A DNA stretch of 64,000 bases from positions 434,001 to 498,000 of the forward strand of contig NZ_LIPD01000001.1 of assembly GCF_001905545.1 (NCBI RefSeq). The letters are read 5' to 3'. This DNA is from Streptomyces sp. CB02056 (GTDB taxonomy: Bacteria; Actinomycetota; Actinomycetes; Streptomycetales; Streptomycetaceae). This document shows, piece by piece, positions 26,168 through 32,761 of the stretch. The translations under genes were made by a program, and so were the position numbers. How positions within the stretch are numbered: the first letter of the stretch is position 1; the number at the start of each line of letters is the position of its first letter. Below the pieces are notes generated by a model that saw nothing but the letters and a program-made list of their open reading frames with translations, searched no databases and was not told the DNA's origin.

Positions 26168-28108
26168 TCAGCCCCCCGCGAGCAGCTGCAGCCGCAGCGC
26201 GAGCTGGAGCTCCAGCGACCGCTCCGGCTGGTTCCAGTCCCGCCCGAGCAGCGCCTCGACCCGGTCCAGCCGCTGGACCACCGTGTTCACGTGGACGTGC
26301 AGCTCGTCCTTGGCCCTGGTCAGGCTGCCGCCGCAGTCGAAGTAGGCGCGCAGGGTGCGGACCAGCTCGGTGCCGCGCCGGGCGTCGTAGGCCAGCAGCG
26401 GGCCGAGCGTCGCGCCGACGAAGCCGTCCACGTCGTGGCCGTCGCCGAGCAGCACGCCGAGGAAGCCGAGCGCCCGGGCGGAGGCGCCCTCCCCGGCCCG
26501 GCCGAGCACCCGCAGGGCCCGGAGGCAGCGCAGACCCTCGCCGTAGGAGGCGGCCAGCGCGGACGGCCCGGCGGCCGGGCGGCCCGCGCCGACGGTGACC
26601 GGGAACCCGGCCAGCCGGGCCAGCCGTTCGGCGGCCTGTCGGGCGGTCTCCTCGGGATCGCCGGCGCCGACCGCGCTGCCGCTGCCACTGCCGCCGCTGC
26701 CGCTCTCGACGGGCGTCAGCAGCACCACCGTCTCAGCGTGCTCGGCGCTGACGCCCCGGGAGCCGAACAGGTAGCGCCGGGCCGCCCCGGCCAGCCGTCC
26801 GCGCTCGTCGGTCTTCCCGTCGGCCGGCTCCGCGACCAGCACCAGGTGCGGCCGGGCGAGGTCGACGCCGAGCCGGCGGCCGCGGGCGGTGAGCCCGGCC
26901 GGGTCGCGCTCGGGGGCGGTCAGCAGGTCGGTGAGCAGGTCGCCGCGGATCCGGTTCTCGGTCTCGGCGACGGAGCGGCGCAGCAGCAGGAGCAGGGCGG
27001 TGACCACGCTGGCCCGCTCGAACAGCCGCCGGTCGGCGTCGTCGAGGTCGGGGCGGCCGCGCAGCACCATGGTGCCGAGCGCGTCGTGCCCGGCCAGCAC
27101 CGCGCAGACCCACTGCTCGCGGTGCCGTACGGACCGGCCCTCGGCGCGGGAGGCGGCGACCGCCTCGGCCAGTTCGGCGGCGGGGGCGGAGCGTCCGGCC
27201 AGCGGCTCGCCCTCGGCGTCCAGGACCGCTATCTCCCCGCCCAGCAGGGCGGCGACGGCGGCGGCGACGTCCGGTACCTCGGCGCCGCGCAGCACCAGGT
27301 CGGTGAGCCGGTCGTGGGCCTGCTCGGCGCGCTGGACAGCGGCGGAGTGGGCCCGGACCAGCTCGTTGGCGGCGTTCAGCTCGGCGAGCGCGGCCCGGGT
27401 GTCGGCCAGCGACTTGGCGGTGTCCAGGGCGATCGCGGCGTGCGCGGCCAGCGAGCAGAGCAGCGCGACCTCGTCGGGGGAGAAGGCGCGCGGCGAGCGG
27501 TCGGCGGCGAACAGGACGCCGATGACCTGCCCGCCGAGCAGCAGCGGCACCCCGATGATCGCCACCAGGCCCTCGTCCAGCACGCCCGCGTCGATCGTGC
27601 CGGTGTGGTGGAAGCGCTCGTCGGTGCGGTAGTCGGGGGTGGCGTACGGGCGGGCGGTCTGGGCGACCAGCCCGCCCAGGCCGTGGCCGAGGCTGAGCCG
27701 CAGGGTCTGGAACAGGACGGAGACCGAGCCGTCGGTGACCCGCATGTAGGTGTCCCCGGCGGCCTCGTCCGGCAGGGTCAGGTAGGCGGTGTCGGTGCCG
27801 AGCAGCATCCGGGCCCGGCGGACGATCGCCTGGAGCACGGTGTCCAGGTCCCGGGAGGCGGCGAGGTCCCCGGCGGTGTCGAACAGGGCGGTCAACTCGG
27901 CTTCGCGGCGCCGGTGTTGACGCAGGGTGCGGTGGACCCGCAGGGCCTGCCAGGTGGCGTCGTCGATCTCGGCGAGGACGGCGGCCGACGCCCCGCGGCG
28001 GCGGGCGTCGGCCAGCACGTCGGCGAAGTCCTCGGTGGCGGCGCCGGAGGCGAGCAGGTCGAGCAGTCGCCGCAGCGCGGGCGCGGCGCTTTCCTGAGGG
28101 TGGTTCAT
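26168..28108 (-). CDS. GAF/PucR-type transcriptional regulator
   Basis: A 646-aa regulator. A GAF domain covers about residues 90-235 ([19 protein letters not shown] to HAAIALDTA), followed by a linker and a PucR/CdaR-like region. The C-terminal helix-turn-helix of the PucR type reads [20 protein letters not shown], then [14 protein letters not shown] (about 590-630). Such regulators usually activate catabolic genes in response to a small molecule. The start codon of this gene is 67 bp after the MFS stop codon on the same strand, so they are probably one operon. The regulated genes are likely the MFS gene and the 3-hydroxybutyrate dehydrogenase upstream (inference). No clear ribosome binding site precedes the ATG at 28108. 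Confidence 0.85.
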
Positions 28109-28175
28109 GGTGCGTGCTGCCAATCGGCGTCGGTTCCGTCGGTTCCGAGAAAGCGCGATCGTACCGGCTCGGCCC

Positions 28176-29555
28176 TCAGACGACGGCGGGCCTTCCGGCC
28201 GCGGCGGCGTCCGGCTCCGGGCCGTCCTGGCCGGCCTGCCCCTCGACCTCCGCGAGGTCCAGGCCCCTGGTCTCCCGGCCGCAGAGCACCGCCAGGACGG
28301 TGACCGCCGCCGCGATGGCGACGTACACCGCGATGGGGGTGGCGCTGCCGTAGTCCTTGAGCAGTGCGGTGGCGATCAGCGGCGCCGGGGCGCCGGCCGC
28401 CACGGAGGAGAACTGGGCCCCGATCGAGGCGCCCGAGTACCGCATCCGGGTCGCGAACAGCTCGGAGAAGAAGGCGGCCTGGGGCGCGTACATGGCGCTG
28501 TGGAAGACCAGTCCGACGGTCACGGCGGCGAGCAGTGAGCCGAAGGACCTCGTGTCGACCAGGCCGAAGAAGACGAAGGCCCAGGCGCCCACCCCGACCG
28601 CGCCCACCAGGTAGACCGGCCTGCGCCCGACCCGGTCGGACAGCGCGCCGAACAGCGGGATCAGCGCGAACTGGATCGCGGAGGCGACCAGCACGGCGTT
28701 CAGCGCGGTCTGCTTGGAGAAGTGGGCGTGGTTGACGGCGTACACGAGCACGAACGTCGTCATCACGTAATAGGAGATGTTCTCCGCCATCCGCGCGCCC
28801 ATGGCCACCAGCACCTCCCGCCAGTGGTTCCGCAACACCTCGACCAGCGGCGGCCGTTCGGGAGCCTTCCGGGACTGCTGCGCCGCCAGCGCCTGCTTGA
28901 ACAGCGGCGACTCGTCCACCGCGAGCCGGATCCACATCCCGACCGCGACCAGCACCGCCGACAGCAGGAACGGCACCCGCCAGCCCCAGGCCAGGAACGC
29001 CGCGTCCGACTGCACCGCCGTCATCAGCGACAGCACCCCGGCCGCCAGCAGGTTCCCGGCCGGCGCCCCGCCCTGCGGCCAGGACGCCCAGAAGCCCCGC
29101 CGCCGCTGGTCCCCGTGCTCCGACACCAGCAGCACCGCGCCGCCCCACTCGCCGCCGAGCGCGAAGCCCTGCACCAGCCGCAGCACCGTCAGCAGCACCG
29201 GCGCCGCGACCCCGATCGAGTCGTACGTCGGCAGCAGTCCGATCGCCGTGGTCGACCCGCCCATCAGCAGCAGGCTCACCACCAGCAGTTTCTTCCGCCC
29301 CACCCGGTCCCCGAAGTGCCCGAACACCAGCGCCCCGAGCGGCCGCGCCGCGAAGCCGATCGCGTAGGTCAGGAAGGAGAGCAGCGTCCCGGTCAGCGGA
29401 TCGCTGTGCGGGAAGAACAGCTTCCCGAACACCAGGGCCGCCGCCGTTCCGTACAGGAAGTAGTCGTACCACTCGATCGTCGTGCCGATCAGGCTCGCAG
29501 CCACCACTCTCGGGAGTGAACTGCTCGCCGCCGTACCTCGTGCGGAGGTGCTCAT
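28176..29555 (-). CDS. MFS transporter, metabolite:H+ symporter (MHS) type
   Basis: A 459-aa membrane carrier with 12 predicted helices. The opening GTTIEWYDYFLYG and loop 2-3 GHFGDRVGRKKLL are signatures of the metabolite:proton symporter branch (ShiA/ProP/KgtP relatives), importing organic acids or zwitterions. Substrate is unknown; the neighbour encoding 3-hydroxybutyrate dehydrogenase suggests a short hydroxy acid. The ATG at 29555 (MSTSARG) is chosen. Upstream is a palindrome with a spaced GGTAGGAA motif shared with the dehydrogenase gene. Confidence 0.9.
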   Translation of the reverse strand: MSTSARGTAASSSLPRVVAASLIGTTIEWYDYFLYGTAAALVFGKLFFPHSDPLTGTLLSFLTYAIGFAARPLGALVFGHFGDRVGRKKLLVVSLLLMGGSTTAIGLLPTYDSIGVAAPVLLTVLRLVQGFALGGEWGGAVLLVSEHGDQRRRGFWASWPQGGAPAGNLLAAGVLSLMTAVQSDAAFLAWGWRVPFLLSAVLVAVGMWIRLAVDESPLFKQALAAQQSRKAPERPPLVEVLRNHWREVLVAMGARMAENISYYVMTTFVLVYAVNHAHFSKQTALNAVLVASAIQFALIPLFGALSDRVGRRPVYLVGAVGVGAWAFVFFGLVDTRSFGSLLAAVTVGLVFHSAMYAPQAAFFSELFATRMRYSGASIGAQFSSVAAGAPAPLIATALLKDYGSATPIAVYVAIAAAVTVLAVLCGRETRGLDLAEVEGQAGQDGPEPDAAAAGRPAVV

Positions 29556-29598
29556 GGCCACCACTTCCAGAACCAGGGGGGAGACGATGTCGCCACAA

Positions 29599-29653
29599 GG
29601 TAGGAAGCGGCCGACCCCGGGACTATGTGGGCGGCCCACACAGTCCCGGGGTC
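29599..29653 (-). promoter_or_regulatory. Promoter/operator region of the MFS gene with 41-bp palindrome
   Basis: A 20-bp inverted repeat (29613-29632 and 29634-29653, one mismatch) has the core ATGTGGGCGGCCCACA. GGTAGGAA lies 18 bp from ATGTGG (29599-29606). The same GGTAGGAA-N18-ATGTGG layout occurs before the dehydrogenase gene. On the coding strand TACCTT would be the -10 region. The palindrome may also work as a terminator for the upstream dehydrogenase gene. Confidence 0.6.
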
Positions 29654-29708
29654 GAATGTGCCCGCTCTCCCTATGAGAGGGATGGCCGGACCACGGAGCG
29701 CCCGCCGC

Positions 29709-30470
29709 TCAGTGCGCCGTCCAGCCACCGTCGACGGGGAGGCTGGCGCCGGTGATGTAGGAGGAGGCGGGGGAGCAGAGCCAGAGGGCGAGCTGGGCGA
29801 CCTCGTCGGGTTCGATGAGGCGCTTCACGGCGGTGCGGTCGAGCATGATCCGCTCGACCACCTCGTCCTCGGGGATGCCGTGGGCGAGCGCCTGGGCGGC
29901 GATCTGCTTCTCCACCAGGGGGGTCCGGACGTAGCCCGGGTTGACGCAGTTGCTGGTGACGCCGTACGGCGCGCCCTCCAGGGCGACGGTCTTGCTCAGG
30001 CCCTCCAGCGCGTGCTTCGCGGTGACGTACGCGGACTTGAACGCGCTGGCGCGCAGGCCGTGGACGGAGGAGATGTTGACGACCCGGCCCCACCCCTGCT
30101 CGTACATGTGCGGCAGGGTGCGGCGCAGGATGCGGAAAGGGGCCTCGACCATGACGCGCTGGATGAGGGTGAAGCGGTCGGGCGGGAACTCGTGCACGGG
30201 GGCGACGTGCTGGAGGCCCGCGTTGTTGACGACGATGTCGGCGTCGTCCGGGAGGGCGTCCACGGCCCCGGGGTCGGCGAGGTCGGTGACGATCGCGCGG
30301 CCGCCGATCCGCTCGGCGAGCTCCTCGGCCGGGCCGGCCGCGAGGTCGACGACGTAGACCCGGGCGCCGGCCCCGGCGAAGGCCTCGGCGCAGGCCCGGC
30401 CGATGCCCGAGGCGGCCCCGGTGACCATGGCCGTGCGCCCGGCGAGCGGGCGGGCAGTAGAGGTGTCCAT
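29709..30470 (-). CDS. 3-hydroxybutyrate dehydrogenase (SDR)
   Basis: A 253-aa NAD-dependent SDR. Rossmann motif TGAASGIGRA, then the family's VNNAGLQHVAPVHEFP, catalytic Ser in NISSVHGLRAS and Tyr/Lys in AYVTAKHALEG, and VNPGYVRTPLVEKQI. The QHVAPVHEFP segment is characteristic of D-3-hydroxybutyrate dehydrogenases, which convert 3-hydroxybutyrate to acetoacetate. The ATG at 30470 is preceded by no ribosome binding site; a -10-like TACCGT lies only 9 bp away, suggesting a leaderless or very short leader. It is followed on the same strand by the MFS gene. Confidence 0.88.
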   Translation of the reverse strand: MDTSTARPLAGRTAMVTGAASGIGRACAEAFAGAGARVYVVDLAAGPAEELAERIGGRAIVTDLADPGAVDALPDDADIVVNNAGLQHVAPVHEFPPDRFTLIQRVMVEAPFRILRRTLPHMYEQGWGRVVNISSVHGLRASAFKSAYVTAKHALEGLSKTVALEGAPYGVTSNCVNPGYVRTPLVEKQIAAQALAHGIPEDEVVERIMLDRTAVKRLIEPDEVAQLALWLCSPASSYITGASLPVDGGWTAH

Positions 30471-30478
30471 GGCCCAGA

Positions 30479-30557
30479 ACGGTAGGAATCCGGCGGCCCC
30501 GCTCCCATGTGGCGGACCGCCACAGCATCCCGCCAGGTTGTGGCGTCGTCCGCCATG
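30479..30557 (-). promoter_or_regulatory. Promoter/operator region of the dehydrogenase gene
   Basis: TGTGGCGG-A-CCGCCACA (30508-30524) is a perfect palindrome. GGTAGGAA (30481-30488) lies 18 bp from its ATGTGG, exactly as before the MFS gene. A second imperfect site, TGGCG-TCGTC-CGCCA, lies at 30541-30555. No good -35 box is visible, which would fit an activator-dependent promoter. Confidence 0.6.
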
Positions 30558-30838
30558 ACGGCGACCCGCGGCCCGAACGGCGGATCGACCCTCGGAGAGG
30601 CCCTCGGAGAGGCCCCCGGAACCACCGACGGTTCGGCTACGGAAGACCAAACCCCTCCCGGCTCCGCTTCCCCACAATGGGCGCGGTTGCTTCACCCGTT
30701 CGGTGGATTGCTCGGTCAGATCCACCCATAGCGCCCGAATGCTCGCTACATTCACGCCGATTCCCGACAGGGGGCGCCGCCCCAGGCCGCCGAAGTGCTG
30801 GTGAGGCCCGGTGCGACGTCCGAGAGGTGTTGACAGAC
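30558..30838. other. Divergent intergenic region between dehydrogenase and NsdA-like regulator
   Basis: Nothing coding is visible. It holds a short direct repeat (CCTCGGAGAGGCC twice, 30590-30615) and the leader of the regulator with GAGAGGTG near 30822. Confidence 0.4.
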
Positions 30839-32761
30839 ATGCCCCAACGGCCTGCAACCGACAGCCCGGCGTACGGACCGCTCGACCCGCTCGGCCAGCA
30901 CCGAGGTCCGGTCGGCCGGACCCTTCCGGACGCCCCCGACGCCCTGACCGCCGACGCCATGACCGCCGACACGCTGACGGCCGACGCCCTGACCGCCGAC
31001 GCGTCGACCACCGACACGTTGACCGCCGACGCCCCGGACGCCGACGACCTGCGGCTGCCGGTGCAGGCCACACCCGACCGGCACGAGAACCCCGTCGCGC
31101 CCGCCCCGGCCCGCGGCGCCGGCCACTCCGGCCCGGCCCCGCAGAACGGCCAGCTCGCGGCGCTGATCGAGGAGGCCGGCTTCTCGCACGCGGGCCTGGC
31201 CCGCCGGGTCGACCAGCTCGGCCTGGAGCACGGCCTCGACCTGCGCTACGACAAGACCTCGGTCACCCGCTGGCTGCGCGGCCAGCAGCCGCGCGGGGCC
31301 ACCCCGGCGCTGATCGCCGAGGTCTTCACCCGCCGGCTCGGCCGCCGCCTCACCGCCCAGGACCTCGGCCTGGACGCCTGCGCCCCGGTCTACGCGGGCC
31401 TGGAGTTCGCCGAGACGCCGCAGGAGGCGGTGGACATCGTGGCGAGCATGTGGCGCAAGGACAACGGCCCGCAGTCCGAGCTGCGCCGGATCGCCTTCAC
31501 CCCGGCCGGCCTGGTCGTCCCCAGCCGGGACTGGCTGATCGGCCGCACCGACGAGCGGGTCGCCCGGGACGGCTCCACCCTGGCCCGGCCGGACACCGCC
31601 ACCGGTCCACCCTCCGGCAGCGCCACCTCCGCGGCCATCACCGGCGCCCCGGCGCCGGGTGCGCCCGGCGCGTCCCCCGGGAGCCCGTTGCGCGGCCCGG
31701 CCCCCGGCGTCCCCGGGGCCCCCACCGCGCGCAGCACCGCCGGGACGACCGGCACCGCCCCCACCATCGGCCGGGTGCCGATCCAGAGCCGCCGGCCGCC
31801 GGTCGCCGTCGAGCCGCCGTACACCGACCCGGCCCGCGAGTCCCGCCCCACCCTGCGGGTCGGCCGCGGCGACATCGCCGCCATCCGCGCCGTCGGCGAC
31901 CTCTTCCGCGCGCTCGACCACGCCTACGGCGGCGGCCACGCCCGCCAGGCGCTGGTCCGCTACCTGGAGAGCGAGGCCGAGCCGATGCTGCGCGGCCGCT
32001 ACGGCGAGCAGATCGGCCGGGCCCTGTTCGGCGCCGTCGCCGACCTCACCAGGCTGGCCGGCTGGACGTCCTTCGACATCGCCGCGCACGGCCTCGCCCA
32101 GCGCTACTTCGTCCAGGCGCTGCGCCTCTCCCAGGCCGCCGGGGACCGCGCGCTCGGCGGCTACGTGCTGGTGACGATGAGCCAGCAGGCCGTCCACCTC
32201 GGCCACGGCCGGGAGGCGGTCCAGCTCGCCAGGGTCGCCCAACAGGGCGTGGGCACCGCCGTGCCGCCGGTCGTCCAGTCGCTGATGCACGCCGCCGAGG
32301 CGCGCGGGCACGGCCTGCTGGGCGACGTCCGGTCCTGCACCACCGCCCTGGTGCGCGCCGAGCGCGCCCTGGCGGCGGCCCGGACGGGCGACGAACTGCC
32401 CTCCTGGGCGCGGTACTTCGACGAGGCCCAGCTCTCCGACGAGTTCGCCCACTGCTACCGCGACCTCCAGCAGTGGCGGACGGCCGCGCAGCACGCCGAG
32501 AAGTCGCTGCGGCTGCGCTCGCCCGCCTACGCCCGCAGCCGGATCTTCTGCCGCCTGGTGCTGGCCACGGCCCGGCTCGGCATGGGGGACCTCGACGAGG
32601 CGTGCACCATGGCCACCGACGCGCTGCGGGCGGCGGGGGAGATGCGCTCGGCCCGCTCGCTGGAGTACGTCCGGGACTTCCACCGCCGCCTCACCCCCTA
32701 CCGCGGCAGCCCGGTGGCCCGCGCCTTCGAGGAAACGGCCCGGCAGGCGGGAGTGATCTGA
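30839..32761 (+). CDS. NsdA/NsdB-like regulator with TPR-type repeats
   Basis: A 640-aa protein. The N-terminal 70 residues are low complexity with a TADxLTADA tandem repeat. Residues about 105-185 resemble the N-terminal domain of the Streptomyces regulators NsdA and NsdB (LARRVDQLGLEHG, TSVTRWLRGQQPRG, EVFTRRLGRRLTAQDLGL). A Pro/Ala/Thr linker spans about 245-325, then helical TPR-like repeats to the end (RALFGAVADLTRLAGW, YFVQALRLSQAAGDRALGG). NsdA negatively controls sporulation and antibiotic production; the role of this one is unknown. The ATG at 30839 follows GAGAGGTG. Confidence 0.8.
   Translation: MPQRPATDSPAYGPLDPLGQHRGPVGRTLPDAPDALTADAMTADTLTADALTADASTTDTLTADAPDADDLRLPVQATPDRHENPVAPAPARGAGHSGPAPQNGQLAALIEEAGFSHAGLARRVDQLGLEHGLDLRYDKTSVTRWLRGQQPRGATPALIAEVFTRRLGRRLTAQDLGLDACAPVYAGLEFAETPQEAVDIVASMWRKDNGPQSELRRIAFTPAGLVVPSRDWLIGRTDERVARDGSTLARPDTATGPPSGSATSAAITGAPAPGAPGASPGSPLRGPAPGVPGAPTARSTAGTTGTAPTIGRVPIQSRRPPVAVEPPYTDPARESRPTLRVGRGDIAAIRAVGDLFRALDHAYGGGHARQALVRYLESEAEPMLRGRYGEQIGRALFGAVADLTRLAGWTSFDIAAHGLAQRYFVQALRLSQAAGDRALGGYVLVTMSQQAVHLGHGREAVQLARVAQQGVGTAVPPVVQSLMHAAEARGHGLLGDVRSCTTALVRAERALAAARTGDELPSWARYFDEAQLSDEFAHCYRDLQQWRTAAQHAEKSLRLRSPAYARSRIFCRLVLATARLGMGDLDEACTMATDALRAAGEMRSARSLEYVRDFHRRLTPYRGSPVARAFEETARQAGVI
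30944..31043 (+). repeat. In-frame tandem repeat coding for TADxLTADA
   Basis: About six copies of a 15-bp unit like CTGACCGCCGACGCC within the start of the regulator gene. Likely a slippage-prone array whose copy number may vary between strains. Confidence 0.75.

Follow-up and report, generated by a model that had tools for sequence, protein, structure and literature searches.

Within the 64,000-nucleotide stretch of Streptomyces sp. CB02056 DNA analyzed here (the window), three neighboring genes on the minus strand encode a 3-hydroxybutyrate dehydrogenase (HBDH) of the short-chain dehydrogenase type, an MFS transporter, and a PucR-type regulator (Table 1). In addition to TIGR01963, HBDH exceeds the cut-off of NF009093 (275.3 bits against 258), and it falls below that of NF009931 (238.3 bits against 340); as judged from its family, the product would oxidize 3-hydroxybutyrate to acetoacetate. 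The transporter scores 439.2 bits with TIGR00883 (metabolite:H+ symporter), narrowly below the cut-off of 443.45, and is therefore referred to as an MFS transporter of the likely metabolite:H+ symporter type and not as a TIGR00883 member. In the regulator, a GGDEF-like domain (PF17853; 66 bits, cut-off 24.5) lies ahead of the C-terminal HTH_30 domain (PF13556; 72.5 bits, cut-off 27). The two proteins encoded after the regulator gene, on the minus strand, we take to be LipB and LipA. An Rfam scan of positions 28000-31000 returned no family reaching its gathering score.

Table 1. Coordinates of the genes and promoter elements in the window.
Feature	Position	Strand	Remarks
GAF/GGDEF-like/HTH_30 PucR-type regulator, proposed reader	26168..28108	-	PF01590, PF17853, and PF13556 above cut-off
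MFS transporter	28176..29555	-	PF00083 and PF07690 above cut-off
MFS -10 region TTCCTACCTT	29597..29606	-	columns 36-45 conserved in 19 MFS sites
Strongly folding 21-bp inverted repeat enclosing MFS site 2	29612..29654	.	95% complementary
MFS promoter site 2 TGTGTGGGCCGCCCACAT	29625..29642	-	exact pattern match; conserved columns
MFS promoter site 1 CATAGGGAGAGCGGGCACA	29657..29675	-	same register across 19 genus MFS sites
HBDH, 3-hydroxybutyrate dehydrogenase	29709..30470	-	short-chain dehydrogenase; TIGR01963 309.4 bits, cut-off 307.05
HBDH -10 region TTCCTACCGT	30479..30488	-	ATG 8 nt further on
HBDH promoter site 2 TGTGGCGGTCCGCCACAT	30507..30524	-	exact pattern match; perfect 8-bp arms; columns 0-17 conserved
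Divergent regulator gene beside HBDH	starts ~30509	+	
HBDH promoter site 1 CATGGCGGACGACGCCACA	30539..30557	-	same register across 62 aligned HBDH promoters

Anatomy of the two promoters

An earlier sequence-only reading of the window described a GGTAGGAA-N18-ATGTGG layout upstream of both MFS and HBDH. GGTAGGAA is indeed found at 29599 and 30481, with ATGTGG exactly 18 bp on, and at 0-1 mismatch these two copies are the only ones in the whole genome of 9,541,283 bp, in which the same pattern read backwards gives one match at the same setting. From base composition (72% G+C assumed), ~0.016 exact copies per genome and 0.0001 per window are expected. Read on the coding (minus) strand, GGTAGGAA is the -10 region TTCCTACC, which fits the earlier guess of TACCTT/TACCGT as the -10. 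The palindromes noted at ATGTGG are also present, one as TGTGGCGG-A-CCGCCACA at 30508-30524 and the MFS one as the tip of a longer inverted repeat that the earlier reading had passed over. Their centers, read as 5 and 7 bp, had raised the concern that different proteins might bind the two sites. That concern dissolves on the coding strand, where both palindromes are an 18-bp TGTG-N10-ACAT element sharing one register; the apparent center of the MFS copy is displaced by its opening TGTGTGG.

Each promoter spans ~80 bp and comprises, in coding-strand order, an ATGG...CACA inverted repeat (site 1), the TGTG-N10-ACAT repeat (site 2), and, exactly 18 bp past site 2, a -10 that reads TTCCTACC[G/T]T. 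Site 1 had been overlooked in the earlier reading. The left halves of the two sites are separated by 33 bp and the right halves by 31 bp, about three helical turns, and the repeats extend down to the -35 position. The proposal of a shared regulatory promoter for these two genes has strong support. Because both have this two-repeat layout in the same register, the suggestion of different readers for the two sites is not supported.

The 21-bp inverted repeat that encloses MFS site 2 falls outside the shared motif, since arms of at least 14 bp are seen in only 4 of the 19 MFS sites found in the genus (median 9). A consensus scan for a T-run terminator at this repeat found none, and a hairpin or terminator was rejected as a shared feature; the repeat possibly has an insulating role. 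Just after the MFS -10, around the predicted start, the sequence GTGGCGAC (window 29589-29596, minus strand) is identical in 19/19 genus MFS promoters. An upstream reading frame opening with GTG in the MFS leader was considered and dropped, as the few frames inspected were inconsistent and this GTG lies ahead of the predicted start.

Register and distribution of the promoter

Among the 70 genus genomes, 65 have an HBDH match, giving 66 HBDH loci. The pattern TGTG-N10-ACAT-N18-TTCCTACC lies upstream of HBDH without mismatch in 35 of these loci, and with at most one, two, three, and four mismatches in 53, 57, 61, and 62, respectively. Four loci are omitted from the resulting alignment of 62 HBDH promoters: the register appears by eye to be shifted by a one-base indel in L011 and L041, and the promoters of L061 and L063 have drifted. 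The conserved columns form three blocks, ATGG...CA of site 1, TGTG...CACAT of site 2, and the -10 region, which reads TACCGT or TAGCGT in 61/62 promoters. The ATG is positioned exactly 8 nt past the -10 in 58/62, a spacing from which the HBDH mRNA is predicted to be leaderless or nearly so, starting at the ATG or within about two bases of it.

In the 19 genus MFS sites, these three blocks recur with unchanged spacing. All sites were aligned on site 2 and the -10 only, which makes their agreement in site 1 independent: 61/62 HBDH and 17/19 MFS promoters have both T at -31 and G at -29, and 61/62 and 18/19, respectively, have CA at -18/-17. An alignment of 73 sites requires no gaps. At one mismatch, the pattern yields 75 matches in 55 of the 70 genus genomes, leaving 15 genomes with no match at this level, and the reversed-pattern control yields none. 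By coordinates, 73 of the 75 matches precede HBDH or MFS; of the other two, one leads into HBDH at the edge of a contig and one lies before a truncated MFS 5' end. The motif is thus conserved at orthologous loci; its absence or lack of conservation there was one of the outcomes that the sequence-only reading had named as refuting it.

Whether MFS carries its own copy of the promoter follows its distance from HBDH. In 54 genus loci, MFS lies in line behind HBDH. When the gap between them is at least 130 nt, a cut chosen post hoc after inspection of the data, an MFS site (at most three mismatches) is present in 19/21 loci (the exceptions are L040 and L056); when the gap is shorter, a site is present in 0/33. 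Where MFS is located 1.9-5 kb from HBDH or HBDH is not nearby, the site is still present (L106-L108, L110, L111). An MFS gene close behind HBDH would accordingly be read through from the HBDH promoter, and one placed elsewhere would use its own copy.

A matrix trained solely on the genus HBDH promoters was applied to the ~510 bp that precede MFS in the first 40 listed genomes of other genera, so that training and test sets are separate; 1000 first-order shuffles, which reached a maximum of -20.0, set the threshold at their 99.9% level (-20.6). On the forward strand, 27/40 regions pass, 26 with scores above 10 and one (L211) with 2.5, as against 5/40 on the opposite strand, every one with a negative score. 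HBDH is directly upstream of MFS in none of the 27 matrix-positive genomes and in 12 of the 13 matrix-negative ones. Among the negatives, the HBDH of L192 is an N-terminal piece only, and L195 lacks both a site and an upstream HBDH. In 20 other-genus loci that were fetched, gene order is often changed, with MFS convergent with HBDH-PucR, and the MFS site is kept; the HBDH promoter has its own site at two mismatches in three of these loci (L171, L172, L175). Judged from these comparisons between genomes, co-regulation of HBDH and MFS is close to certain.

Across the family, the pattern matches 89 of 249 genomes, and the control gives one match; two of the 89 (G114 and G176) look chance-like by sequence. 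A sequence-only profile built from the 73 sites was used for the class and matched 85/394 genomes at E ≤ 0.01. All 14 genomes outside the family with E < 1e-3 were fetched, and HBDH, MFS, and/or PucR relatives are found at the match in 12; none of these relatives was found at the matches of L281 and L287. Of 20 weaker matches fetched (E ≥ 1e-3; 19 from outside the family, and G140), 5 lie at HBDH, MFS, or PucR, indicating that profile matches above 1e-3 are mostly chance. In the window's own genome, weaker profile matches occur on contig C3 (E 1.9e-4), with no fitting gene start found there, and on contig C5 (E 0.0025). With three mismatches allowed, this genome contains seven pattern matches and two control matches, so its weak sites are unreliable. 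In other families, a palindrome-like GTGACnCCGGTCAC is visible by eye between site 2 and the -10 of MFS-side promoters (L279, L283, L284, L286, L288-L291). It is absent from the Streptomycetaceae promoters and is possibly a second operator.

The putative reader of the sites and its relatives

The PucR-type protein encoded at 26168-28108 is the probable regulator of both promoters. It is the best candidate on the combined grounds of synteny, co-occurrence, co-loss, exclusion of the divergent neighbor, and likeness to GabR. PucR is found in 65/65 HBDH-positive genus genomes, wherever it is located. A relative at E ≤ 1e-110 is present in 89/89 motif-positive family genomes compared with 200/249 overall (Fisher p ~2e-11, with relatedness ignored). 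This threshold alone lets paralogues through, with one genus paralogue at 7.0e-123 and the weakest of the 89 at 5.5e-132, and the co-occurrence partly reflects shared inheritance, as PucR, HBDH, and MFS are mostly neighbors. PucR is seemingly missing from three MFS-positive genomes; G109 and G116 contain it as split matches, and in G217, a 910-contig draft, no PucR match was found at E ≤ 1e-25, though HBDH, MFS, and a variant site are present. G053 and G054 lack HBDH, MFS, and the motif, and their PucR is reduced to a 105-residue piece (G053) or gives no match (G054). Paralogous GAF/PucR regulators (~34-41% identical; L236-L240, L242, L243) reside in other neighborhoods and are not accompanied by the motif, no site scoring above -19.5 being found at any of the seven loci. 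In G052, which has no HBDH or MFS match, a two-mismatch site precedes the PucR gene (L123 4601); this site may be the remnant of an HBDH promoter that has come to drive the regulator.

The layout of the locus is reminiscent of characterized PucR-type systems, as far as these are described in the portions of the source papers used here. In Corynebacterium glutamicum, GabR activates gabTDP and binds a pair of 21-bp inverted repeats lying directly ahead of the -35, much more strongly when both are present (PMC7652997). Similar to the regulator in the window, GabR is a PucR-type protein encoded beside its catabolic and permease genes, a layout of the same kind. The main differences are that GabR lacks the GGDEF-like domain (PMC7652997), whereas the regulator here has GAF and GGDEF-like domains; that GabR, encoded divergently from gabT, controls a single operon, whereas two genes here can each carry a promoter copy; and that the repeats here are ~18-19 bp with TGTG/CACA ends rather than 21 bp. 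In Bacillus subtilis, the activators PutR and AdeR bind catabolic promoters at inverted repeats of 17 and 24 bp (PMC7652997); by description, they share the PucR type and the inverted repeats with the present system and differ in serving proline and alanine pathways. SrmR (Srm22) of Streptomyces ambofaciens combines a GAF domain with a PucR-like HTH_30 (PMC8388888), an architecture shared in a streptomycete with the regulator here, and acts in the spiramycin cluster.

We favor, with a probability of about 0.7, PucR-dependent activation of an HBDH and MFS transporter regulon laid out like GabR/gabTDP. The two genes would be targets of one regulator, and the adjacently encoded GAF/PucR protein most likely binds both repeats. 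Its GAF domain would sense 3-hydroxybutyrate or acetoacetate as a pathway substrate or product, and transcription would be activated in response; 3-hydroxybutyrate is put forward as substrate or inducer on the basis of the enzyme family.

The alternatives differ in who reads the repeats and to what effect. An unlinked regulator could read both, with PucR controlling something else or merely assisting; G217, with its genes and variant motif, is consistent with this, as is the separation of the PucR gene from HBDH in several genus genomes (L112-L118). The presence of PucR in every HBDH-positive genus genome and every motif-positive family genome, together with its loss or reduction in G053 and G054, argues against an unlinked reader, which we consider unlikely. 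PucR might instead be the reader and act as a repressor, or as both repressor and activator. The sign of regulation cannot be read from sequence, and B. subtilis PucR acts both ways, although the PucR-type regulators characterized are mostly activators, as far as the available part of the source describes them (PMC7652997). The end of site 2 at about -35, with site 1 further upstream, is a typical activator position, and a scan gave no sigma-70-type consensus promoter; repression therefore seems somewhat less likely still than an unlinked reader.

Two further explanations have very little in their favor. The divergent regulator gene adjoins the HBDH promoter and is present in 23 of 36 genus stretches, but it was found in 0/20 other-genus and 0/14 other-family stretches, most of which carry the motif. 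With 0/34 in these stretches (stretches, not whole genomes), it was rejected as the reader and is highly improbable in that role. Chance likeness is equally improbable, as is a hairpin or terminator surrounding the MFS site. In the window, this site does form the tip of a strongly folding 21-bp inverted repeat; however, such long arms are confined to the few MFS sites noted above, whereas conservation is seen in the 18-bp element, the repeat upstream of it, and the -10. The reversed-pattern controls (0 in 70 genomes, 1 in 249) also speak against chance, and the pattern matches in relatives, the conserved columns, and the matrix test refute it as a general explanation.

Under PucR-dependent activation, the HBDH/MFS/PucR set is a well-supported small catabolic regulon of a kind already known, and biologically an ordinary one. 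In the portions of the open-access literature on PucR, Streptomyces, and 3-hydroxybutyrate dehydrogenase that were available, no description of an HBDH/MFS/PucR regulon was found. For streptomycete-type bacteria, the proposal supplies a GAF-domain PucR regulator with a concrete operator open to testing; it also links an MFS transporter that otherwise lacks an assignment to 3-hydroxybutyrate oxidation, and the register fixed across genera offers a ready reporter design. We would give even odds to a broader proposal, a PucR-dependent ketone-body regulon of Actinomycetes, serving to take up and oxidize 3-hydroxybutyrate, with its own promoter type, in which tandem repeats replace the -35, the -10 is of the TTCCTACC type, the HBDH mRNA is leaderless, and the unit is kept through gene relocations and is recognizable across several families.

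Interrupted MFS genes in relatives

In several relatives, the MFS gene is cut right after the GTTIEWYD codons (L138 4305-5914, L148 6900, L167 3345-7718, L274 329, L275 307, and L109 8470), leaving a short 5' end and a promoter with the same motif. The bases that follow the cut begin with AACTCAT in five of these (L138, L148, L167, L274, and L275). MFS is likewise cut in L276 and L277, with other sequence following. A tyrosine integrase (PF00589) is encoded nearby in L138 and L167, and an intact MFS gene with its own site is found elsewhere in G045, G241, G078, and G164. The arrangement suggests an attachment site of an integrative element within the MFS transporter gene, with the element apparently bringing a replacement MFS 5' end together with a regulated promoter.
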